Below are positions 14,524 to 24,268 of a stretch of 41,619 nt of DNA, piece after piece. Under the pieces are notes generated by a model, which saw nothing but the letters and a program-made list of their open reading frames with translations, did no database searches and was not told the origin of the DNA. The translations under genes and the position numbers were made by a program. This DNA comes from an uncultured Lentisphaerota bacterium (lineage in GTDB: Bacteria > Verrucomicrobiota > Lentisphaeria > Oligosphaerales > CAITYL01): the NCBI GenBank assembly GCA_903894975.1, contig CAITSE010000109.1, forward strand, positions 1-41,619. Reading direction: 5' to 3'. How positions within the stretch are numbered: position 1 is the first letter of the stretch; each line of letters starts with the position of its first letter.

Positions 14524-15353
14524 ACCGGCAGGAACTCCTCGCCCTGCTTGAACGGTTCGGGATCCACCCCAGTCGTAAGCTCGGCCAGAATTTCCTGGCC
14601 GACACCAACCTGCTCAACTGGATGGTGCGCACCGCGGCGCCCCAGGCCGGCGAAACCGTGATCGAAATCGGCCCCGGCACCGGCGTCCTCACCGCCCAGC
14701 TCCTGGACGCCGGCACCAACGTTATCGCCGTGGAACTGGACCGGCGCCTGGCCGAACACCTCCACAACGCCTTCGACGGCCGGGAAAATTTCCGCCTCGT
14801 GGAAGGCGACGCCTGCCGGGTGGACTTCGCGGCAATCAGCGGCACGACGCCCTGGCGCTGCATCGCCAACCTCCCCTACAGCATCAGCAGCGTCGTCATC
14901 GCCCGCTTCCTGGAACTGGCCAATCCGCCCCGGGAACTTTTCGTTCTCCTGCAATGGGAAATGGCGGCACGGATGCGGGCCGCGCCCGGCACCAAGGACT
15001 ACGGCAGCCTGAGCGTACTCGTCCAACTCTTTTACGACGTGCGCATCCTGCGCCGGGTCGCGCCGCAGGTTTTCCTGCCGCCGCCCGAGGTCGATTCGGC
15101 CTATGTCCAGTTCAAGCGCCGGGACACCGCGCCCACGGCGGCGGAGTTCACCCGCATCCGCGAGATTGTCCGGCTCGGTTTCAGCCAGCGCCGGAAACAG
15201 CTCCGCAAAATGCTGTCCGCCCGCTTCCCCGTCGCGGCCGTCTGCGCCGTCCTGACCGGGTTCGGCCTGCCGGAAGACGTCCGGGCCGAAGTCCTCACCC
15301 CCGCCCAGTTCCGCCGCTTGGCGGAATTCTTGAACCCGCCGCCGGCGGCTTGA
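14520..15353 (+). CDS. rsmA: 16S rRNA (adenine1518/1519-N6,N6) dimethyltransferase RsmA (KsgA)
   Basis: 277 aa, normal for the family. The start MNRQELL...GIHPSRKLGQNFL matches the KsgA N-terminus (KxLGQNFL). AdoMet motif I is EIGPGTGVLT (49-58), the acidic VELD follows, and motif IV is NLPY (117-120) followed by SISS. The C-terminal helical domain includes RLGFSQRRKQLRKML, typical of KsgA. It dimethylates two adjacent adenines in helix 45 of 16S rRNA late in 30S assembly. There is no Shine-Dalgarno in front of 14520; translation could depend on coupling through the short upstream frame. The gene converges on the mutarotase gene with a 49-bp gap and no obvious terminator. Confidence -1.
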   Translation: MNRQELLALLERFGIHPSRKLGQNFLADTNLLNWMVRTAAPQAGETVIEIGPGTGVLTAQLLDAGTNVIAVELDRRLAEHLHNAFDGRENFRLVEGDACRVDFAAISGTTPWRCIANLPYSISSVVIARFLELANPPRELFVLLQWEMAARMRAAPGTKDYGSLSVLVQLFYDVRILRRVAPQVFLPPPEVDSAYVQFKRRDTAPTAAEFTRIREIVRLGFSQRRKQLRKMLSARFPVAAVCAVLTGFGLPEDVRAEVLTPAQFRRLAEFLNPPPAA

Positions 15354-15402
15354 GTCTCTAACAGGACTCTATTCTGCCACAAAAGATCGGGCGGATATCG
15401 GC

Positions 15403-16278
15403 CTACACCGCCGCGCCGGCCGTATAAGTCGTCAGGCCAGCCCATTCCTCGCCCGGCGCCAGAATCCGGCCGGGAACGACGGCGCCGGTCTCGACGCAAA
15501 CCATGTTCCGGTATTCGTCGTCGCCGAAATCTTCCATGGCCCGGGCCTTGTCGATCCAGGGATTCCAGACCACGGCGTCGGGCAGGTGCTGGGTGCGAAT
15601 GCGGACGGCTTCGCCGCCGGCTGCGCCGAGGATCCGCAGCTCATCCGGGGTTTGCAGATAGATCCGGTCGGTTTCCCGGTCAAACGGGATCTCCGGCCGG
15701 GTTTCCGTTTCTCGAACCCGGCCGCGCAGGGAATCCAGGTACTCGCAGCCGTCCAGCCCCACCACCCGGGTTGCGGCAATGTCGTCCACGGCGAAATACG
15801 TGTGCAGCGCAACCTGGAAGGGCAGCGGCGCGACGCCGGTGTTGGTGACGCGCAGGCCAAGACGGATACCGGCCGCGTCAAGATGCACGGCCAATTCCAA
15901 GTCAAAGGCGTGCGGCCAGGCCGCCGGGGCTGCCACCGCCGTGGACGCACAGCCGAAAACCGCCCAGACGGCGTCGTCCGGCTGCACACCCTGCCGCCGC
16001 AGTTCCCAGATGCGGGTGCGGGCCAAACCGTGCTTCGGCAACGGCCCGTCGCCAAACTGGGGAAAGATCACCGGCACGCCGCCGCGGATTGGCTGACCCG
16101 CCGCGAAACAGGAACGGCGACTGAGGAACAGCCGCTCCCGCCCGTCCGCCGTGCACCAGGAGGTCAGATGCCCGCCCAGCAGGTACACCGTGGCGACTGC
16201 GCCCGACGGATGGCACATCACCGCCATCTCCAACCCGTGGGAATCCTTCTCCAAAACCACCGACGAAGCCGTGCTCAT
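15403..16278 (-). CDS. D-hexose-6-phosphate mutarotase (YeaD-like, galactose mutarotase fold)
   Basis: 291 aa starting MSTASSVVLEKDSHGLEM, with GAGG eight bases upstream of the ATG at 16278; a longer frame to 16422 reads through spacer and was rejected. Family motifs: YLLGGHLTSW, LFLSRRS, IRGGVPVIFPQFGDG, HGLARTR, the His of LHTYFAV, VVWNPWIDKA and the C-terminal NMVCVETG, in which the Glu is the expected catalytic base. It interconverts the alpha and beta anomers of glucose-6-phosphate and related hexose phosphates. It lies 91 bp after the P-type ATPase gene on the same strand; a link between the two is not obvious. Confidence -1.
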   Translation of the reverse strand: MSTASSVVLEKDSHGLEMAVMCHPSGAVATVYLLGGHLTSWCTADGRERLFLSRRSCFAAGQPIRGGVPVIFPQFGDGPLPKHGLARTRIWELRRQGVQPDDAVWAVFGCASTAVAAPAAWPHAFDLELAVHLDAAGIRLGLRVTNTGVAPLPFQVALHTYFAVDDIAATRVVGLDGCEYLDSLRGRVRETETRPEIPFDRETDRIYLQTPDELRILGAAGGEAVRIRTQHLPDAVVWNPWIDKARAMEDFGDDEYRNMVCVETGAVVPGRILAPGEEWAGLTTYTAGAAV

Positions 16279-16369
16279 GATAAAACCTCGTGCAAGATCA
16301 CGCTGGAATATGGCATTCCCTGATGGCGATGAGCCCTCGACTCCCTCGCCGACCACAAGACCACACTCT

Positions 16370-18361
16370 TTATCCCTCACCGGCCCGATCCAGTTCCTCG
16401 CCGCAGCGAACCAGCCGAGCACTGTTGAAAACCACAGCCATCGTGCCGATGATATGCACCACGGCAGCAGACACCGGGGTCAGCCAGCCAACGGTGGAGA
16501 GATAGAGGCCGCCCAGAATTACGAGCAGACCAAGAACCAGATTCTGGCGCATTAGCGACTGGGTGCGACGCGACAGGGAAATCAGGAACGGAATACGTCT
16601 CAAATCATTGTTCATCAGCGCGATAGATGCACTTTGCACCGCCACGTCACTGCCGAGAACGCCCATGGCGATGCCAATGTCGCCCGCGGCCAGGGCCGGC
16701 GCGTCATTGACGCCGTCACCGACCACCGCCACCAGATGCCCACGGCGTTTAAGTTCCTCGACGACGGCCACTTTTTCCTGCGGCAGACAGCCGGCGCGAA
16801 CTGTGGTAATTCCGAGTTTTCCGGCCACGGCCTGGGCTGCGGATTCGTTGTCGCCGGTAACCATGCAAATTTCGCGCAACCCCTGGGCCCGAAGCGCGTC
16901 CACGGCAGCTCTGGCGGCGGGGCGCACGGCGTCACGCAGGCCGATCCAGCCGAGAACCCGGGCGCCGCGGGCAACGTAGACGATGCTCATGGCCCGCGTA
17001 TCCTCACCGGGAACGGGAACCGCGTCAACAGGCAGCCCTTCTTCACGCAGCCAGGTCACACGGCCGACGCGGCAGACCTCGCCGCTAAACGTCGCGGTGA
17101 CGCCCTTGCCGGCGGTTTCCTTGAATTCGCCGGGAGCCTGCCAGCGGACGCCAGCGTCCTGGGCCAGCTTGCGCAAGGCCTGGGCCGCGGGATGATTGCT
17201 GTTGGCTTCGACGGACGTGGCAGTCTCCATGAGTTCGGCCAGTTCCACGCCGGGCGCCGGGTGGAGCTTGGCCACCTCCAGCACGCCTTCGGTGAGGGTG
17301 CCGGTCTTGTCAAACACCACGGCCCGGATTTTGGCGGCCAGCTCAATATGCGTCACATCCTTGATCAGAATGCCCAGACGCGCCGCGGCGGCGATAGCGG
17401 CGATGACCGCGGACGGCGTGGCCACGACCAAGGCGCAGGGACAGGCAATGATCAACACCGCAATCACCCGCGATAAATCGTTGGTGAAGAACCAGACCAG
17501 GGCGGCCAAAGACAGGATCGCCGGGGTGTAAAAGCCGACATACCGGTCGATCATGCGCATGATCGGCAGGCGCGAAGATTCGGCGGCGACAATGAGGTCC
17601 CGGACCTTGCCCAGGGTCGTGTCCCGGCCAACGCGGGTGACACGCACGTCCACCAGCCCGGTCAAATTCTGGGTGCCGGCAAAAACTTCCGCCCCGGGCG
17701 TCTTGTCCGCCGGCAGCGATTCACCCGTGATGGAGGCCTGATTCACCGTAGTGGTGCCGGTGAGGACGACGCCGTCGGCCGGAAAATTTTCACCGGGACG
17801 AATGCGGCAGACGTCATCGATATGCAGTTCCGTGACGTCAACCATTTCCTCTTCACCGCCGTCCCGCCGGACGCGGCGGGCCTGGCGCGGCGTGAGCCGG
17901 ACCAGCGCCTCAATGGAGGCCTCGGCGCCAATGGCGGTCTTCTGCTCCAACGTGATCGAAAGCAGCATGAGGAAGGCCACCGCCCCGGCGGTGCGGTAAT
18001 CCTTGATGGCAAATGCTGCCAGCAGCGCCAGCGACACCAGTTCGTTCATGTAGACCTTGCCGCGCAGCAGATCCTTGACCGAGGTCCACAGAATCGGGGC
18101 GGACAAAATCAGGGCGCCGGCCAACGCGCTCAGTTCCAGCGCGAACGGATCCAGCGTACCGGGCAGGAAAAAACCGCCGAGGTAGGAATTGAGCACCAGA
18201 ATGCCGCCGGTGATAGCCACGCCCAAGCGCACCGTCTCGTGGGAGTGCCCATGGTCATGACCATGCCCATCGTGACCGTGATCGTGGTCGTTCCCGCCGC
18301 AGCAGGCACAGCCCGCGCCGGTGCGCTTCTCAAACGTTTCGCTTGGTTTCCGGCCCAGCAT
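16370..18361 (-). CDS. P1B-type heavy-metal-transporting ATPase with Cys/His-rich N-terminus
   Basis: 663 aa. Ion motif CPC (307-309, in IIACPCALVVATP), actuator TGES (212-215), phosphorylation site DKTGTLTEG (Asp351), the HP motif in SNHPAAQAL, and the hinge GDGVNDAPALA are all present. There is no N-terminal HMA ferredoxin-like domain. Instead the first ~42 residues carry GCACCGG and a His/Asp/Gly stretch (HDHGHDGHGHDHGHSH) that should bind metal. The last helix has HIIGT rather than the Asp-Gly of classical Zn/Cd pumps or the motif of Cu pumps, so Zn/Cd/Co-type export is likely but not certain. It begins 38 bp after the third SPFH gene, probably in the same transcript. Confidence -1.
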   Translation of the reverse strand: MLGRKPSETFEKRTGAGCACCGGNDHDHGHDGHGHDHGHSHETVRLGVAITGGILVLNSYLGGFFLPGTLDPFALELSALAGALILSAPILWTSVKDLLRGKVYMNELVSLALLAAFAIKDYRTAGAVAFLMLLSITLEQKTAIGAEASIEALVRLTPRQARRVRRDGGEEEMVDVTELHIDDVCRIRPGENFPADGVVLTGTTTVNQASITGESLPADKTPGAEVFAGTQNLTGLVDVRVTRVGRDTTLGKVRDLIVAAESSRLPIMRMIDRYVGFYTPAILSLAALVWFFTNDLSRVIAVLIIACPCALVVATPSAVIAAIAAAARLGILIKDVTHIELAAKIRAVVFDKTGTLTEGVLEVAKLHPAPGVELAELMETATSVEANSNHPAAQALRKLAQDAGVRWQAPGEFKETAGKGVTATFSGEVCRVGRVTWLREEGLPVDAVPVPGEDTRAMSIVYVARGARVLGWIGLRDAVRPAARAAVDALRAQGLREICMVTGDNESAAQAVAGKLGITTVRAGCLPQEKVAVVEELKRRGHLVAVVGDGVNDAPALAAGDIGIAMGVLGSDVAVQSASIALMNNDLRRIPFLISLSRRTQSLMRQNLVLGLLVILGGLYLSTVGWLTPVSAAVVHIIGTMAVVFNSARLVRCGEELDRAGEG

Positions 18362-18399
18362 GTTTGCTCAATTCCCTAGTCTGAAAGGTTCTAATTCAA

Positions 18400-19605
18400 C
18401 TACGGCTGCCCGCCCGCTTCCGGCGTCTTCTTCCGGGGCGGCTCCGGACCGAGCAGGAGGCGAACCTCCTGTTCACCACCGTCGCGGACATGGGTCACAT
18501 AACGCGCCTCGGCCCGGCCCAGCGCCTCGCGGACAGCGTCGGCGTGGAGCGAGACCAGCATGGTGTCGGGATTTTTCTCGTATTCGCTGAGAACGGTCTC
18601 GAAATAGTCCGCGGCGGCGCGAATGCCGGCCACGGTGCGGGTCTGATAGGCGCGGGCGTCGCTGAGGACTTTCGTCTTCCGGCCTTCGGCTTCGGTGATG
18701 ACCTTGTTTTCGTAGGCGCGGGCCTTGTCGATCTCAGTCTGCCGATCGGTGGCGGCGTTGAGCACATTGCGGAAAGTCGCCTGCACCGAGGCCGGCGGCT
18801 GCACTTCGACCAGGCTCACCTGCTGCACCTCAATACCCACATCCAATGTTTCCAGCGCCCGGATCACCCGTTCCTTCACCGCGTTGTTCAAGCTGACGCC
18901 GCGGGCGCCAGCTTCGCCGCCCTTGGCCGCGCCGGGCCGGAAAACATCTTCCACGGGCCAGGCCCCGACTTCGGCTACGGCGGCATCCTCCAGCAGACAT
19001 TGGATCAGGAAGTCCACTCCTTCTTTCGCCACCGGCCCGCCGCCAGGCCCGGTCGCCGTGGCCGGATTGTCGGCAAAAGCCAGGTAATAGCGCCGGGCAT
19101 CGCGCACCCGGTAGGTCAGGGTCCAGACCGTATGCATAATGTTAGCGTCACCGGTCAGCAGGTACCCGTCCTGGCCGGGGCGCAACGGTTGATCCTCAGG
19201 CGGGGGCGGCGCGCTTTCCTTGTTCTCCAGCCGGTTCGGATCCAGCTTCGGCGCAAACTGCCGCGTGGTGAGGGTGACGGAGCGCTGGGCCGGAATCTTC
19301 CGAACCTCGTCCACCGGATAGGGCCAGGCCCAGTACCAGTCGCCGCTGCGCAGGATTTCCTGCCCGTCCTTGATCACGAGCTTGCCGAAACGGAACAGCA
19401 TGGCCTGCTGGTCCACCTTGACGTAGAACGCGCCGCCGAACAGGCTGACGGCCAGCACGACCACGATAAGCAGCCGCAACGCCTGGAAAAAACGTCCCAC
19501 GGTGCGCATGAGCGCTTCCAGGCCGGCGTCGCTGGCGGCCGGCGCGGCGGCGGGGATCGGAGACGAAAGTTTTTCGAGTTCCGGAGCCTTCATGGGCGGC
19601 GTCAC
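18400..19605 (-). CDS. SPFH/Band 7 membrane protein, HflK/HflC-like (third of three)
   Basis: 401 aa. A cytoplasmic N-terminal stretch of ~40 residues is followed by one transmembrane helix (RLLIVVVLAVSLFGGAFY) and an SPFH domain beginning VKVDQQAMLFRFGKL. A charged helical segment (TDRQTEIDKARAYENKVITEAEG) is typical of HflK/HflC. HflKC complexes form large membrane cages around FtsH and modulate its proteolysis. The ATG overlaps the previous SPFH stop by 4 bp. The C-terminal ~70 residues (RLLLGPEPPRKKTPEAGG) look disordered. The P-type ATPase gene follows by 38 bp. Confidence -1.
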   Translation of the reverse strand: MTPPMKAPELEKLSSPIPAAAPAASDAGLEALMRTVGRFFQALRLLIVVVLAVSLFGGAFYVKVDQQAMLFRFGKLVIKDGQEILRSGDWYWAWPYPVDEVRKIPAQRSVTLTTRQFAPKLDPNRLENKESAPPPPEDQPLRPGQDGYLLTGDANIMHTVWTLTYRVRDARRYYLAFADNPATATGPGGGPVAKEGVDFLIQCLLEDAAVAEVGAWPVEDVFRPGAAKGGEAGARGVSLNNAVKERVIRALETLDVGIEVQQVSLVEVQPPASVQATFRNVLNAATDRQTEIDKARAYENKVITEAEGRKTKVLSDARAYQTRTVAGIRAAADYFETVLSEYEKNPDTMLVSLHADAVREALGRAEARYVTHVRDGGEQEVRLLLGPEPPRKKTPEAGGQP

Positions 19606-20573
19606 TTCTTTTCCGGAGTGGCGGCTTTGACCGGGGCGGCGGCGGGGCGCAGGCGCGCCGCATCCGGCCGGAGCAGATCGTACGGCGGCGTGTTGGTGTC
19701 CAAAATCAGGGTGGTCTTCTCATCCACCGCCTGGCGCAACGCCTCCAGCTTGCGCAGAAAAACGGCCAGTTGCGGATCTTTCTGGAACACGGCGTAAGCG
19801 GCGGCGGCGGTGCGGTCGCCCTCGGCGCGGAGCTGCATACCCGCCGCCTCGGCCTCGGAAAGGATGCGACTGACCTTAACGTCCGCCTCGGACCGGATCT
19901 TCTGCGCATCGCGGGCGCCCTCGGCCCGATAGGCGTCGGACTTGCGCTGCCGCTCGGCCCGCATGCGCTCGAACACTTTCATGGTCACATCCTCCGGAAA
20001 GCCGATGTGCCGGAAGCCGATGTAACGGACTTCAATGCCGTATTTCTCCATCGCCACTCCGGAGAGTTCACCCAGGATTTCCTTTTCCACATCCGGAATC
20101 CGGACCTTGCCGGGATCGGTATTGATCAAATCGCTCAAGGCATGCCGGCCCAGCACGTTGTTGCGGCCATTGCGCACCAGATCATCCAGCTTATTTTCCG
20201 CCTCGGACACCGTGTTGACCGCCTTGAGGTAGGTCACCGGTTCGCCCACGCGCCAGACCACGAAGGTGGTAACGATCACCGGGAAGTTGTCCGCCGTCTG
20301 CACCTGTTCCACATTGCCCTTGCGCAGGTCGTAGCACTGCATGCGGCCGTCGTGCCGCCAGACCTCGTCGATCAACGGCAGCTTGACGTGCGCGCCGGGC
20401 TTGAAGATTTTCACCGCGCCGCCGGCCTCGGCCAGGGGTTTGCCGAAGCGCATGACCACGGCGACCTCGGTCTCCCGAACCTGAAAGACCACCAGCGCCG
20501 CGCCGAAAATCACCGCCACCGCCAAGCCCAATGCCAGCGCCGGCCAATGTTGCCAGAAAGTGCGTTCCGCCAT
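19602..20573 (-). CDS. SPFH/Band 7 membrane protein, HflC-like (second of three)
   Basis: 323 aa from MAERTFWQHW; GGAG lies nine bases upstream, which favours this ATG over an earlier one at 20588. One N-terminal transmembrane helix (LALGLAVAVIFGAALVVFQV) precedes the SPFH domain (RETEVAVVMRFGKPL). The order of features and the segment GIEVRYIGFRHIGFPEDVTMKVFERMRAERQRK are very close to HflC, including the ERMRAER helix. It probably pairs with one or both neighbours in an HflKC-like ring. The start follows the large SPFH gene by 73 bp; the stop overlaps the next start by 4 bp. Confidence -1.
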   Translation of the reverse strand: MAERTFWQHWPALALGLAVAVIFGAALVVFQVRETEVAVVMRFGKPLAEAGGAVKIFKPGAHVKLPLIDEVWRHDGRMQCYDLRKGNVEQVQTADNFPVIVTTFVVWRVGEPVTYLKAVNTVSEAENKLDDLVRNGRNNVLGRHALSDLINTDPGKVRIPDVEKEILGELSGVAMEKYGIEVRYIGFRHIGFPEDVTMKVFERMRAERQRKSDAYRAEGARDAQKIRSEADVKVSRILSEAEAAGMQLRAEGDRTAAAAYAVFQKDPQLAVFLRKLEALRQAVDEKTTLILDTNTPPYDLLRPDAARLRPAAAPVKAATPEKK

Positions 20574-20646
20574 GTTGCCCGTCTCCATATGCCTTGTCAA
20601 CAATCCCGAACCGCCGACCTATCCCCGCGGGGGGACGGTTCGCCGG

Positions 20647-22629
20647 TTATTTTTTATCCAAGTCCAAGTCCAGCAGATCCGGCCTGAGCTTTTTCTCCAG
20701 ATTCAGCACTGTCACCTCGCGGCTGGCGGCGCCGGTCACGATATACTTGCGAACGCCGCGGCCTTCGCCCAGCAGAATGTCCAGATAAGAATTCAACATA
20801 TACAGCTCCGGCGCGGCACGATAGGCCAGAAGCTGCGACTCGAAGCGGCCGGCCTCGGCCTGGGCCACCTGGACCCGCTGCTGCCGGTACCCTGTCGCCG
20901 CCGCCTGCATGACGGCCGCCATCGCCTCGCTCTGGGCCACGGCCGACACCGCCCCGGCCTCCGCCTTGAGCGAAAATTCATGTTTCTCCTCCATGGCCCC
21001 GGCCACGGCATCGAACGCCTTGCCAACCTTGACCGGCGGATGAATGCCCTGCAGGCCGATAAACACCACCTCGACGCCCAGGCCGAAGCGGTCCGCCGCC
21101 GCCTGGATGTTCCGGCGTAGCGCCTCGCCTCCCGCCGCCCGGCCATCGGCCAGGATGCGGTTGAAGTCCACGTTCGCCAGGTATAACGTCACCTCGCGGT
21201 TGGCCAGATCCTGAAGCAGCATGGCGCCGTTATGATTGGCATATTGGAAGGCATACAGGTTTTTAACCTTGTAATACAGCGGAATGCTCGCCGCGAGAAA
21301 CTGAACATTGACCGGCAACCGCCGCTCACCAACTTCGCTTGCCGCCTTCACCCCGGCCGCATCCGCCGCGACAATCGGAGCCGTCGCCACGATAAAATTA
21401 AACTCTTCTTTGTTGTGCGCCTTGCTCCAGAGCATGACCCGGCCGGTAGGATCACCCATCTCCTCGCCTTCGCCCGGGGGGGCGTCCTTGACGTCCGTGC
21501 TGCTGCCGGGAACATATCCGATCGGGAGTTCCTGAACGCGTTCGACGGCGAACAACCCCACCGTGTCCACCGGCCACGGCAGTTTGACGTGCAGGCCCGG
21601 GCCGAGCGGCGTCGGCGTGATCACGCGGCCCCAGCGCAGGACCAGGGCATTCTGCTCCGGCCGCACCACCATGACGCAGGTCATGAGCCAGAACAGTGCG
21701 GCCGCCACCGCGGCAAAGGGAATGACCGTGCGCTCCAGAAAGCGGTAGAGCCAGGCGTCGGACACCTTGAACCCGAATTGATAATCGAGCGCGACCGCCA
21801 CATTCCGGGCCACGCCGCCCGGTTCCGTGACCAGAGTCAGCAACCGGCTCTCCGGCATGGGCCGCTCTTCTTCACCGGGCGTCCGCGGCCGGTACCAGTC
21901 GATGATCACGTTCACCAGCAATTCGGCGGCAAACAAGGCCAGCGTACCGAGACCGATGCAGGCGGCGCGCAAATCCGGCCGGAACGCGGCCAGCTTCCAC
22001 TCTGGATTCAGCAGGAAAATCGCCGCGCCGGCCAGGCCGGTCAAGGCCCCGGCCAATAGCAACCATGTCGCCGCCGGCCGCAGCCAGCGGCAGCCGGACG
22101 CGCGTGAAGCGCCGTTGAAATAGCTTCCGGCCAGAACCGCGCCGGCGGCCAGAGCCAGCGACAACAGTCCGTTCTGCACCGGATTGAGAACTTCGGGCGG
22201 TGCAGGCAGCAGATTCCACCGCCGCCAGAACTGCCACACCGCCACACCCAAAAGCAGCGCCGCCGCGGCGGCCGCCGCCGGCACCAGATATTTCAGATAG
22301 GCCTGACTGGCGCGGGCGGCGCTTTTGAGCGCCTCATCCCCGTCGCGGAACAATTCGCCGCCGGCGCCGCGGCCGGCCCGCCATGCGGCCACCGCCGAAG
22401 CCTCGTCCGTTTCGCGCCGGACCAGGCGCAACCGGCCCCAGCCCACCAAGGCCAGGGCCACGCCGCCGGCCGCCGCCAGGACGGCCGGAATCAACGCCAG
22501 CGATTGGGACAGCCCCGCCAGAATCCAGACGGGAAGCAACAACGCCACCGCCGTTCCGGCCAGCAGCGCCGCCATCATTTCCGGGCGGTCGGCCCGGTTC
22601 GCAGACAAATCTGTTATGGGTTCAGCCAT
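20647..22629 (-). CDS. Polytopic SPFH/Band 7 protein with seven predicted membrane helices (first of three)
   Basis: 660 aa, much longer than HflK (about 420). The first ~335 residues hold seven hydrophobic segments in roughly three blocks, the last being VIPFAAVAAALFWLMTCVMVV. The SPFH domain follows directly (VRPEQNALVLRWGRVITPTPLGPGLHVKLPWPVD), then a helical region (AGAVSAVAQSEAMAAVMQAAATG) and a Lys-rich C-terminus. The SPFH part resembles HflK. The polytopic N-terminus resembles the extra membrane domains of HflK-like proteins in some PVC bacteria (recollection, not checked). It heads the three-gene cluster; the region upstream holds a long inverted repeat. Confidence -1.
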   Translation of the reverse strand: MAEPITDLSANRADRPEMMAALLAGTAVALLLPVWILAGLSQSLALIPAVLAAAGGVALALVGWGRLRLVRRETDEASAVAAWRAGRGAGGELFRDGDEALKSAARASQAYLKYLVPAAAAAAALLLGVAVWQFWRRWNLLPAPPEVLNPVQNGLLSLALAAGAVLAGSYFNGASRASGCRWLRPAATWLLLAGALTGLAGAAIFLLNPEWKLAAFRPDLRAACIGLGTLALFAAELLVNVIIDWYRPRTPGEEERPMPESRLLTLVTEPGGVARNVAVALDYQFGFKVSDAWLYRFLERTVIPFAAVAAALFWLMTCVMVVRPEQNALVLRWGRVITPTPLGPGLHVKLPWPVDTVGLFAVERVQELPIGYVPGSSTDVKDAPPGEGEEMGDPTGRVMLWSKAHNKEEFNFIVATAPIVAADAAGVKAASEVGERRLPVNVQFLAASIPLYYKVKNLYAFQYANHNGAMLLQDLANREVTLYLANVDFNRILADGRAAGGEALRRNIQAAADRFGLGVEVVFIGLQGIHPPVKVGKAFDAVAGAMEEKHEFSLKAEAGAVSAVAQSEAMAAVMQAAATGYRQQRVQVAQAEAGRFESQLLAYRAAPELYMLNSYLDILLGEGRGVRKYIVTGAASREVTVLNLEKKLRPDLLDLDLDKK

Positions 22630-22754
22630 GGTGAATCACGAGACCGCCCCGGCCTTCCGGATCCACTCCGGCACCGGGCACGCAACAGTGCGCGCTAACC
22701 ATACTCGCGATTTGCCGCTCCGCAAGGGAATGCGATCATGCTGGCGTAATCCCT

Positions 22755-22933
22755 CAGATGGGAGGGGGCGAGAGTTGAAAAGGTCTGTGGCTTGTGGCCT
22801 GTAGGCCTGTGGTAAAGCATGGACAGGGATGTGGACGGGAACGAAAATCGGCTTTCCCGCCTTCCTCTTCACCACAAGCCACAGGCCTACAGACCACAGA
22901 CCCCGTCTCGCGTTTTGGACAATCCCCCATCTG
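22755..22933. repeat. CTGTGG/CCACAG inverted word repeat upstream of the SPFH cluster
   Basis: The 340-bp spacer between the SPFH and LarA genes holds no gene. An outer pair CAGATGGG/CCCATCTG (about 22755 and 22926) encloses GTCTGTGGCTTGTGGCCTGT (22783-22802) followed by AGGCCTGTGG, and on the other side ACCACAAGCC...ACAGACC (22871-22901). The arms are built from the same short words in permuted order. Both neighbouring genes are on the minus strand, so it sits at the 5' side of the SPFH gene and the 3' side of... no, the 5' side of the downstream transcript only; its role is unknown. Confidence -1.
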
Positions 22934-22969
22934 TAACTAACTCTATTACCATAGCTTATACCACCCAAG

Positions 22970-24268
22970 TCAAGTAAGCATGACGTACGGGCCATCCGGA
23001 ATCACGGCCACCCGCGCGCCGGGATGGTCGCGGAGAAAGTCGTCGAGGAACCGCTGCGCCCGTTCCCGGGCGTCGCCGGCGCCCTCCACCGGGGTGACGC
23101 TCAGGCGGCGCTGGGTTTCCAGCGGGATGCCGTCCGAAACGAAACGCAGCCGTTCCACGCCAGTCATGGCCAGCGTACGGCACTGCATCTGATACTGCCA
23201 CTGGTCAAGCTTGGTGTGATCGCGGCTGGCCCCGGCATCACGCAGAAAAGCGCGCCAGTCATTGGCGTAATGGAGCATCAATTCCGCATAGGCCCGGCTG
23301 CCCAGCCCTTCGCCGCAGTGCGCCGCGACCAGCAGGGTGCTGCCGGCCGACAGCGCCGGCAGCGCCGTGACCATGCCCTTGACCGTCTGGTAGAAAGTCT
23401 GGTCCAGCGGAAATCCGCCGCCGTTGGTGACGACCAGGTCATAAGGCCCGCCGGCAGCGGCCGTGGTCCACTCCGCCACTTGGGCGCAGCCGTGGGCGTG
23501 GGCCGCCTCCAGATCGCCGCAGCAGACCGCAGCGATTTTCCGGTCGCGGGCGAGCGCCACGTTGAAGAGAAAATCGACGCCGACCGCCCGGGCAATGTCC
23601 AACGCGATGGCATGGCAGGGATTACCCTCCAAGTTGCCTTCCCGGGCGCGGGAGTCGGCCAGGGTTTCAAAGCCGTGAAACCGTTGCACCGTCGCCAAAT
23701 CCACCAGCGCCGGGCAGACGCCCTTGCGCCCGCCGGAAAAGCCTGCCATGAAATGGGGTTCGATAAAGCCGGTGACGATGCGGAACTCCGCCTCCGCAAA
23801 GCGCCGGCAGACACTGACCGGCGGTTGTTCGCGAATGCACACCAGCGAGGCGGCGTCATGGGCGTTATGATCCACCACCTCGACCCGGGCGCGGATCTCC
23901 GGGCCGACCAGCGCTTCCAGCTCCACCGGTGTGCTGTGCCGATGCATGCCGGTGCCGACAATGATGACGACCCGTCCGTCTGGGATGCCGCAGTCATTGA
24001 GCGTCCGCAACAGGTGCGGCAGGAATATGGCGTTAGGCACCGGCCGGGTGACGTCGGAAATAGTGATGGCAACGGTGCCGGGCCGGCGTTCGCGCAACAG
24101 CTCCGCCAACGGCTTGGAACCGATCGGGGCCGCCAGAGCGGCGCGGATCGCGGCGTCCGCGTCCGGCAACGCAGGGATGGGCTTGCCTTCCAGGACGGCA
24201 GCGTCCCCGGGCAGGCGCAATTCCATCCCCGTCTTGCCGTAGAGCAGATGATGCGTGGAGGTGATCAT
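22970..24268 (-). CDS. larA: LarA-type nickel-dependent lactate racemase family protein (DUF2088)
   Basis: 432 aa. Residues known from Lactiplantibacillus LarA line up with an offset of about two: Asp72 and Arg75 (SDVTRP), His109 (GTGMHR), His172 and Lys182 in EPHFMAGFSGGRK (the Lys holds the nickel-pincer cofactor), and His198. Such enzymes racemise or epimerise 2-hydroxyacids by hydride transfer to the NPN cofactor. Substrates beyond lactate are common in the family, and this one cannot be read from sequence. No larB, larC or larE cofactor genes lie in the window. The start ATG at 24268 has no strong Shine-Dalgarno. An inverted repeat fills the upstream spacer. Confidence -1.
   Translation of the reverse strand: MITSTHHLLYGKTGMELRLPGDAAVLEGKPIPALPDADAAIRAALAAPIGSKPLAELLRERRPGTVAITISDVTRPVPNAIFLPHLLRTLNDCGIPDGRVVIIVGTGMHRHSTPVELEALVGPEIRARVEVVDHNAHDAASLVCIREQPPVSVCRRFAEAEFRIVTGFIEPHFMAGFSGGRKGVCPALVDLATVQRFHGFETLADSRAREGNLEGNPCHAIALDIARAVGVDFLFNVALARDRKIAAVCCGDLEAAHAHGCAQVAEWTTAAAGGPYDLVVTNGGGFPLDQTFYQTVKGMVTALPALSAGSTLLVAAHCGEGLGSRAYAELMLHYANDWRAFLRDAGASRDHTKLDQWQYQMQCRTLAMTGVERLRFVSDGIPLETQRRLSVTPVEGAGDARERAQRFLDDFLRDHPGARVAVIPDGPYVMLT

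Follow-up and report, generated by a model that had tools for sequence, protein, structure and literature searches.

Gene content of the locus

The window analysed here is a stretch of 41,619 nucleotides from an uncultured Lentisphaerota bacterium (contig CAITSE010000109.1). Four genes lie head to tail on its minus strand, coding for S1, an SPFH protein with seven hydrophobic helices (20647-22629; 660 amino acids (aa), ATG start), HflC (19602-20603; 333 aa from a TTG start, an in-frame ATG at 20573 being the likelier start), K, an HflK-like SPFH protein (18400-19605; 401 aa, GTG start), and a P1B-type heavy-metal ATPase (16370-18361; 663 aa, with a His-rich N-terminus). An earlier note on this DNA had described three coupled SPFH genes. 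Indeed, S1 and HflC are separated by 73 bp when the ATG start of HflC is used (43 bp from the TTG), HflC and K overlap by 4 bp (19602-19605), and the Band_7 domain (PF01145) was retrieved in all three proteins (E-values of 7.3e-6 for S1, 1.9e-26 for HflC, and 4.6e-14 for K). This three-gene set was correct, but the ATPase gene, located 38 nt downstream of K on the same strand, had been overlooked. Promoter and terminator scans of positions 15000-23500 revealed nothing distinctive for the operon.

The HflC protein scored above the equivalog cut-off of its curated model (TIGR01932; 149.7 bits versus 134.4) and can be named as such. Both S1 (E-value of 3.6e-30, 105.3 bits) and K (108.2 bits) matched the hflK model TIGR01933 below its equivalog cut-off of 159.4 bits. 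Moreover, S1 possesses seven helices instead of the single N-terminal membrane segment that is expected of HflK. Its layout comprises a predicted CDF-fold six-helix membrane domain (about residues 11-252), a conserved linker (residues 247-290), a seventh transmembrane segment (TM7; residues 293-318), and an HflK-type SPFH domain.

Conservation of the operon

Upon a search of 288 genomes of the phylum (E <= 1e-10), S1 was matched in 140 of them, the weak matches among these being ordinary HflK. Within the same class, 94 of the 97 other sampled genomes gave a match, one of them (G055) at only 5e-11, indicating that the three-gene set is not a chance arrangement. A scan of GTDB using one protein alone had found no relative. 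When the S1 alignment was used, the best 80 of 555 relatives were kept, being selected on the S1 motif and not on the ATPase, and these belonged to Lentisphaeria, Victivallales, Oligosphaera ethanolica, Verrucomicrobia, and Kiritimatiellota. Together with the genome regions, and after removal of S1 open reading frames (ORFs) shorter than 450 aa or scoring below 150 bits, this resulted in 120 distinct S1 loci, including two CDF-fusion variants (L084 and L096) that are described below. The order S1-HflC-HflK-P1B occurred in 102 of these 120 loci, and the P1B gene preceded the SPFH genes in three others (L087, L088, and L091). Nine loci end within 2.4 kb downstream (L047, L060, L075, L107, L109, L120, L124, L155, and L161). 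Of the 111 loci flanked by sufficient sequence, 105 have the ATPase gene beside the three SPFH genes. The genes are tightly spaced, with gaps of at most 100 nt at the three successive junctions in 99, 100, and 95 of the 102 operons, respectively. In such a synteny survey across Planctomycetes-Verrucomicrobia-Chlamydiae (PVC) genomes, as proposed in the earlier note, the three SPFH genes co-occur in more than 100 loci.

The operon is also present on plasmids of proteobacteria. Searching plasmids by tblastn returned 13 records with S1 as query and 10 records with the S1 protein of Burkholderia as second query. Six of the nine plasmid records examined carry the four genes in order, namely those of Burkholderia ubonensis, Paraburkholderia sprentiae, Rhizobium tumorigenes, Klebsiella aerogenes, Rhizobium sp. 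T1473, and Rhizobium lusitanum, so that alpha-, beta-, and gammaproteobacteria are represented; the remaining three (Tistrella, Persicobacter, and Shinella) contain HflK/C pairs without the ATPase. Seven hydrophobic peaks were found in five of the six plasmid S1 proteins, that of R. tumorigenes displaying six at the threshold used. Further, profile comparison aligned the N-terminal domains of the plasmid S1 proteins with the PVC domain over 289 columns (P of 1.9e-10, probability of 96.9%). The operon of Paraburkholderia sprentiae is located near genes for a zinc ABC importer and a PCu(A)C copper chaperone.

Several other genes accompany the operon. In the window, S1 is immediately preceded, on its own strand, by a gene of the lactate racemase family (LarA-like; 22970-24268), which BLAST comparison did not find beside the operon in 38 places of relatives. 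Genes for Ser/Thr protein kinases adjoin some S1 operons (L055:11592-14357, L055:6263-7270, and L160:38-1057), and a protein kinase occupies the place of the ATPase in L055. Many PVC loci carry an ABC ATPase gene directly behind the P1B gene (59 gaps, median of 36 nt). Also part of this operon extension are an ABC-2-like permease, encoded upstream of S1, as well as a large membrane protein and one more conserved protein (places of the extension are L122:8998-10173, L166:16080-17504, L048:16641-18248, and L170:7755-8717). The window operon stands without these extension genes, and a homologue of the large membrane protein occurs elsewhere in its own genome (C162:34030-35391).

Ancestry of the SPFH proteins

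A tree of 78 SPFH domains was calculated, from which six untrimmable S1 rows were left out (L077, L079, L080, L083, L087, and L088); both this tree and that of the P-type ATPases described below were quick ones, supported by the Shimodaira-Hasegawa-like approximate likelihood ratio test (SH-aLRT) only. The S1 proteins (support of 92) and the K proteins (99) each formed one side of a branch spanning PVC bacteria and proteobacteria. HflC grouped with ordinary HflC, across a split of 100 from S1 and K, and both S1 and K were set apart from E. coli HflK. According to this phylogeny, S1 and K are both K-type proteins, and the S1, HflC, and K lines predate the split of the PVC and proteobacterial operons. 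The Band_7 domain common to the three proteins might have pointed to a functionally meaningless local triplication of one SPFH gene in recent times. This is contradicted by the S1 and K branches and by the position of HflC beyond the deeper split, and has to be considered extremely improbable. Hence, instead of the recent duplicates without co-occurrence elsewhere that the earlier note had set against its own proposal, ancient lines that share more than 100 loci were retrieved.

The membrane domain of S1

Averaged over 39 S1 sequences, the family displayed seven hydrophobic peaks. An AlphaFold2 model of residues 1-330, based on 66 aligned rows (mean predicted local distance difference test score of 89.0, predicted template modelling score (pTM) of 0.82), placed helices at residues 15-41, 46-87, 103-139, 150-174, 181-206, 218-246, and 293-318, in agreement with the seven membrane segments claimed before. 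The first six make up the N-terminal domain and helix 7 represents the single anchor usual for HflK, confirming that S1 carries a membrane anchor of its own. Structural comparison of this model by VIA-align gave YiiP (8f6k_B) as best match (Z of 17.1, root-mean-square deviation (rmsd) of 3.1, 201 residues), and 28 CDF rows outranked the first unrelated chain (Z of 8.7). Similarly, the top 19 Foldseek matches were all CDF proteins (YiiP/ZnT; best E-value of 0.02, probability of 1.00), with zero matches below an E-value of 0.001. The full-length model of S1 (pTM of 0.54) aligned with both CDF chains and SPFH chains, HflK among them, and matched the E. coli HflK cage chain 7vhq_E with a Z of 15.3, albeit with an rmsd of 15.5 over 266 residues. 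In the predicted model, as distinct from a solved structure, the membrane domain of S1 thus has the CDF transmembrane fold.

TM5 of S1 (residues 181-206; 22012-22089, minus strand) corresponds to the helix that bears HxxxD in true CDF transporters, and this site is absent in S1. Invariant residues of S1 are instead E76, E236 (TM6), and, in the linker, Y246, R247, P248, R249, S261, P270, and D282-F287. Given a CDF-like fold without the CDF metal site, the membrane domain is more likely an adaptor or a relic than the channel considered in the earlier note. Arginine-rich loops follow helices 2, 4, and 6, suggesting that the N-terminus of S1 is cytoplasmic and its SPFH domain periplasmic. This agrees with HflK/C being stated to be periplasmic (PMC2636767; this paper and those cited below are quoted from parts of their text).

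Natural fusions of SPFH proteins with metal transporters

A CDF transporter with a recognisable Pfam domain was fused to HflK in three of the 288 genomes (G114, G275, and G226), each fusion being followed by HflC and HflK. The two CDF-SPFH fusions read (L084 and L096) have HxxxD sites in TM2 and TM5. P1B genes are located downstream of the CDF-SPFH fusion in L084 and L284, the former being of the CadA type. On a plasmid of Aquibium oceanicum, a CDF-SPFH fusion is followed by HflC, HflK, a peptidylprolyl isomerase, and a heavy-metal ATPase, and an Nramp transporter gene lies upstream of this operon. Five of the 288 genomes (G114, G287, G053, G020, and G007) encoded a P1B ATPase and an HflK-type SPFH protein in one open frame (L283:7867-11031, L299:130-3006, L300:5640-8609, L301:2440-5451, and L302:2-2635). 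The CPC and DKTGT motifs are intact in these P1B-SPFH fusions, and HflC and HflK follow in the four genomes of which the contig is long enough. As fusion partners usually act together, the fusions are the strongest evidence that SPFH proteins and metal transporters form one unit.

Genes for peptidylprolyl isomerases accompany CDF-HflK fusion operons in two phyla (L084:6935-9004, L284:4281-6266, and L298:11137-12831).

The SPFH proteins might also stabilise the ATPase in the membrane by acting as a lipid or chaperone scaffold of the flotillin type, with neither a sealed cage nor control of metal access. Such a scaffold would be in line with the scaffolding and quality-control roles described for SPFH proteins (PMC11222466 and PMC12005517) and with the conserved operon. 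However, it would leave unexplained why two unrelated types of transporter are fused to SPFH proteins in the position of HflK, and the match of the S1 model with the E. coli HflK cage chain, its high rmsd notwithstanding, argues for a cage. The scaffold is therefore judged rather unlikely.

The P1B ATPase

The ATPase of the window scored 530.4 bits with the heavy-metal model TIGR01525 (cut-off of 346.25) and contains CPC at residues 307-309, DKTGT at residue 351, and HIIGT in TM8 at residue 636. Based on this model, the DKTGT motif, and the CPx motif, it is a P1B ATPase by sequence and may transport a heavy metal. The sole other P-type ATPase found in the genome, on contig C97, had a low score against the P1B profile. 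A tree of 76 P-type ATPase rows contained 44 of the approximately 100 PVC operon ATPases, chosen partly at random. One P1B clade (SH-aLRT of 100) united 43 of these 44 and all six proteobacterial operon ATPases, as well as four rows labelled as references (L241, L243, and two of L233). CadA, SilP, and copper pumps fell outside this clade, as did the P1B of L084, which grouped with the CadA types.

The catalytic DKTGT motif is retained in 100 of 101 operon ATPases. ATPases with VPA instead of CPC occur in Oligosphaera relatives (L039, L040, L041, L042, L044, and kin). His-rich loops were found in 45 of 103 P1B proteins versus 66 of 610 flanking ORFs, and in 14 of 107 S1, 3 of 105 HflK, and 0 of 106 HflC proteins. 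As only the ATPase stands out, these loops were rejected as a metal signature of the whole operon.

FtsH and other SPFH proteins of the genome

The draft genome from which the window originates (4.46 Mb, 89.45% complete) contains one FtsH, on another contig (C7). With this FtsH as query, zero matches were obtained in the 10,609 ORFs of the S1 loci, and none was present in the CDF-SPFH and P1B-SPFH fusion neighbourhoods searched. The remark in the earlier note that no FtsH adjoins the SPFH genes hence extends to the loci of relatives. The only further Band_7 places in the genome are two on C203 and one on C40, none of them HflK/C by the curated cut-offs. The former concern two adjacent large SPFH proteins of 622 and 528 aa (L036:905-4325), and the latter an SPFH protein of 540 aa with N-terminal zinc ribbons (L037:3269-4888). 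The only HflK/C-like pair in the draft genome is the HflC/K/S1 set of the window, and consequently these proteins may also serve FtsH.

It could be argued that the operon codes for an HflK/C complex that modulates FtsH and contains one additional subunit, with the ATPase as a mere neighbour through, for instance, zinc-stress co-regulation, FtsH being a zinc protease. The presence of one FtsH and no other HflK/C-like pair in the genome fits this view, as do the score of HflC above its equivalog cut-off and the naming of PA2437-PA2439 of Pseudomonas aeruginosa as FtsH modulators (PMC9431628). Against it stand the location of the ATPase gene next to the SPFH genes in 105 of 111 loci, including those with a changed gene order (L087, L088, and L091), the P1B-SPFH and CDF-SPFH fusions, the neighbourhoods without FtsH, and the fact that S1 and K both score below the hflK cut-off and branch separately from E. 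coli HflK. An FtsH modulator of this kind is accordingly considered unlikely.

A putative cage-housed metal-transport unit

Computation showed a conserved operon with SPFH lines of ancient paralogy, a P1B clade common to the operon ATPases, a predicted fold resembling that of CDF proteins, and SPFH-CDF and SPFH-P1B fusions. The three SPFH genes and the P1B ATPase gene probably code for one cage-housed metal-transport unit, with the cage, the metal, and the direction of transport being inferred. S1 would be an HflK-type SPFH protein with an N-terminal CDF-fold (YiiP/ZnT-like) six-helix domain that lost its metal site. Together with HflC and K, it may form a mixed HflK/C-type periplasmic dome, in which S1 and K would take the K-type places and HflC the C-type places. 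This dome would enclose a membrane patch holding the P1B ATPase, whereby the CDF-like domain and the invariant cytoplasmic linker might dock the pump in the dome, and the dome would govern access to the periplasmic mouth of the pump. That a dome of three subunit types seals this mouth, with a dead CDF protein fused to a ring subunit as docking device, is a tentative proposal, somewhat less probable than its opposite. If true, HflK/C cages would house membrane machines in general, FtsH and metal pumps being among their occupants.

As to the ion and the direction, the operon resembles a locus of P. aeruginosa (PA2434-PA2439), which encodes HmtA (PA2435), described as a P-type ATPase importer, and three proteins of the HflC/HflK kind (PA2437-PA2439) (PMC4542158). 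These genes rise 5.6 to 14.4-fold on zinc depletion (PMC4542158), the proteins of the locus rise as well, although not all of them significantly (PMC11761036), and Zur binds the PA2439 promoter (PMC8531726). By analogy with this hmtA locus, the ion transported by the CPC-bearing ATPase of the window is likely zinc or copper, and uptake is slightly favoured over export.

Established P1B pumps are exporters, as are CDF proteins. Accordingly, the unit may be a P1B efflux pump, with an SPFH dome sitting over its periplasmic outlet and passing the metal on. The ABC exporter-like set that often lies behind the operon and the P1B genes downstream of the CDF-SPFH fusions in L084 and L284, the CadA type of the former included, would suit an exporter. 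Conversely, import was reported for the HmtA counterpart, which increases when zinc is depleted (PMC4542158 and PMC10393844), and the Paraburkholderia operon is located near a zinc importer. Metal export is thus a real possibility, with chances slightly below even.

Several findings weigh against a cage-housed metal-transport unit. Besides the single HflK/C-like set in the genome mentioned above, six S1 loci lack an adjacent P1B gene of the operon kind (L055, L073, L085, L096, L102, and L084). The CDF metal site, (H/D)xxxD in TM2 or TM5, was found in 0 of 66 aligned S1 rows. Sequence kinship of S1 with CDF proteins is weak in hhalign comparison (P of 0.0016, probability of 16%, versus P of 0.04-0.37 for controls), and the proteobacterial N-terminal domains gave no useful CDF match (45 columns, P of 0.01). 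Because of this weak sequence support, the CDF kinship of S1 relies mainly on the predicted fold and the CDF-SPFH fusions. In the ATPases, the CPC motif of TM6 is replaced by VPA in 18 of 101 operon proteins and otherwise altered in 13 more, implying that not all of them have to be heavy-metal transporters. Since the catalytic site is intact in the VPA proteins, it is possible that their transported ion has changed, and ion specificity may have drifted among relatives. In addition, no conserved Zur-like palindrome was shared upstream of 99 operons. Here, 300 bp upstream and 90 bp of the gene were scanned for Zur-like words in all 99 cases and also for palindromes in the first 40, with isolated palindromes alone turning up; the Zur box of PVC bacteria may differ. 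Finally, hmtA mRNA was reported as not zinc-repressed (PMC8531726), and the import direction of HmtA still needs confirmation according to a review (PMC10393844).

Comparison with known systems

Regarding the hmtA locus of P. aeruginosa, the window operon shares three SPFH genes (of the HflK family, HflC, and the HflC family) and a P-type metal ATPase gene in the same order of locus numbers. It differs in that PA2436 lies between PA2435 and PA2437 in P. aeruginosa. The two correspond in gene content and published order. The genes PA14_33070, PA14_33080, and PA14_33110 correspond to PaFlo5, PaFlo6, and PaFlo7, the tags being mapped to PA2437-PA2439 in the paper that uses the FtsH-modulator label (PMC9431628). 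A 2026 paper describes slight phenotypes for PaFlo5-7 deletions and leaves the ATPase unmentioned in the text available (PMC13086221). Likewise, the parts of PMC4542158, PMC8531726, PMC11761036, PMC10393844, PMC9431628, and PMC13086221 covered here do not treat the SPFH proteins and the ATPase as one machine. Studies of HflK/C cages concern their regulation of FtsH, and PA2437-PA2439 are listed beside HmtA as FtsH modulators in work on zinc. The recurrence of the four-gene unit in Lentisphaeria, Verrucomicrobia, Kiritimatiellota, and three proteobacterial classes, together with the fusions to two kinds of metal transporter, turns the housing of metal pumps in SPFH cages into a testable claim. 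HmtA, an atypical P-type importer of which the mechanism is unsettled, would thereby gain a set of missing subunits, and a caged pump, if true, would mean that its odd import behaviour stems from its cage.

With the E. coli HflK/HflC-FtsH complex (7vhp, 7wi3, and 9cz2), the operon shares HflC and HflK-type subunits, the predicted SPFH fold of S1, and an expected periplasmic dome. In contrast to E. coli, the number of SPFH proteins is three, one of which has six additional helices, the gene partner is a P1B ATPase, and FtsH is not nearby. CDF transporters (YiiP and ZnT) have the predicted six-helix fold in common with S1, and related loci carry true CDF-SPFH fusions. However, S1 lacks HxxxD and has no match to PF01545 at E <= 1, and an SPFH domain replaces the cytoplasmic CDF domain. 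The P1B-SPFH and CDF-SPFH fusions are compact proteins suited to structure determination.

The components of the operon thus are of known kinds (an HflK/C cage, a P1B pump, and a CDF fold) in a widespread arrangement that is undescribed as one system in the literature searched; neither the SPFH-P1B set as one system nor a CDF-SPFH fusion appeared in the titles and abstract openings of open-licence PMC articles. A structural precedent exists in human red cells, where a stomatin dome encloses AQP1 and UT-B (PMC12407830). Both cases would involve an SPFH dome enclosing a transporter, although the human transporters are passive and no ATPase takes part. Altogether, the widespread operon of three SPFH genes and a heavy-metal pump gene suggests that, in some bacteria, a protein cage generally regarded as holding a protease contains a metal pump.

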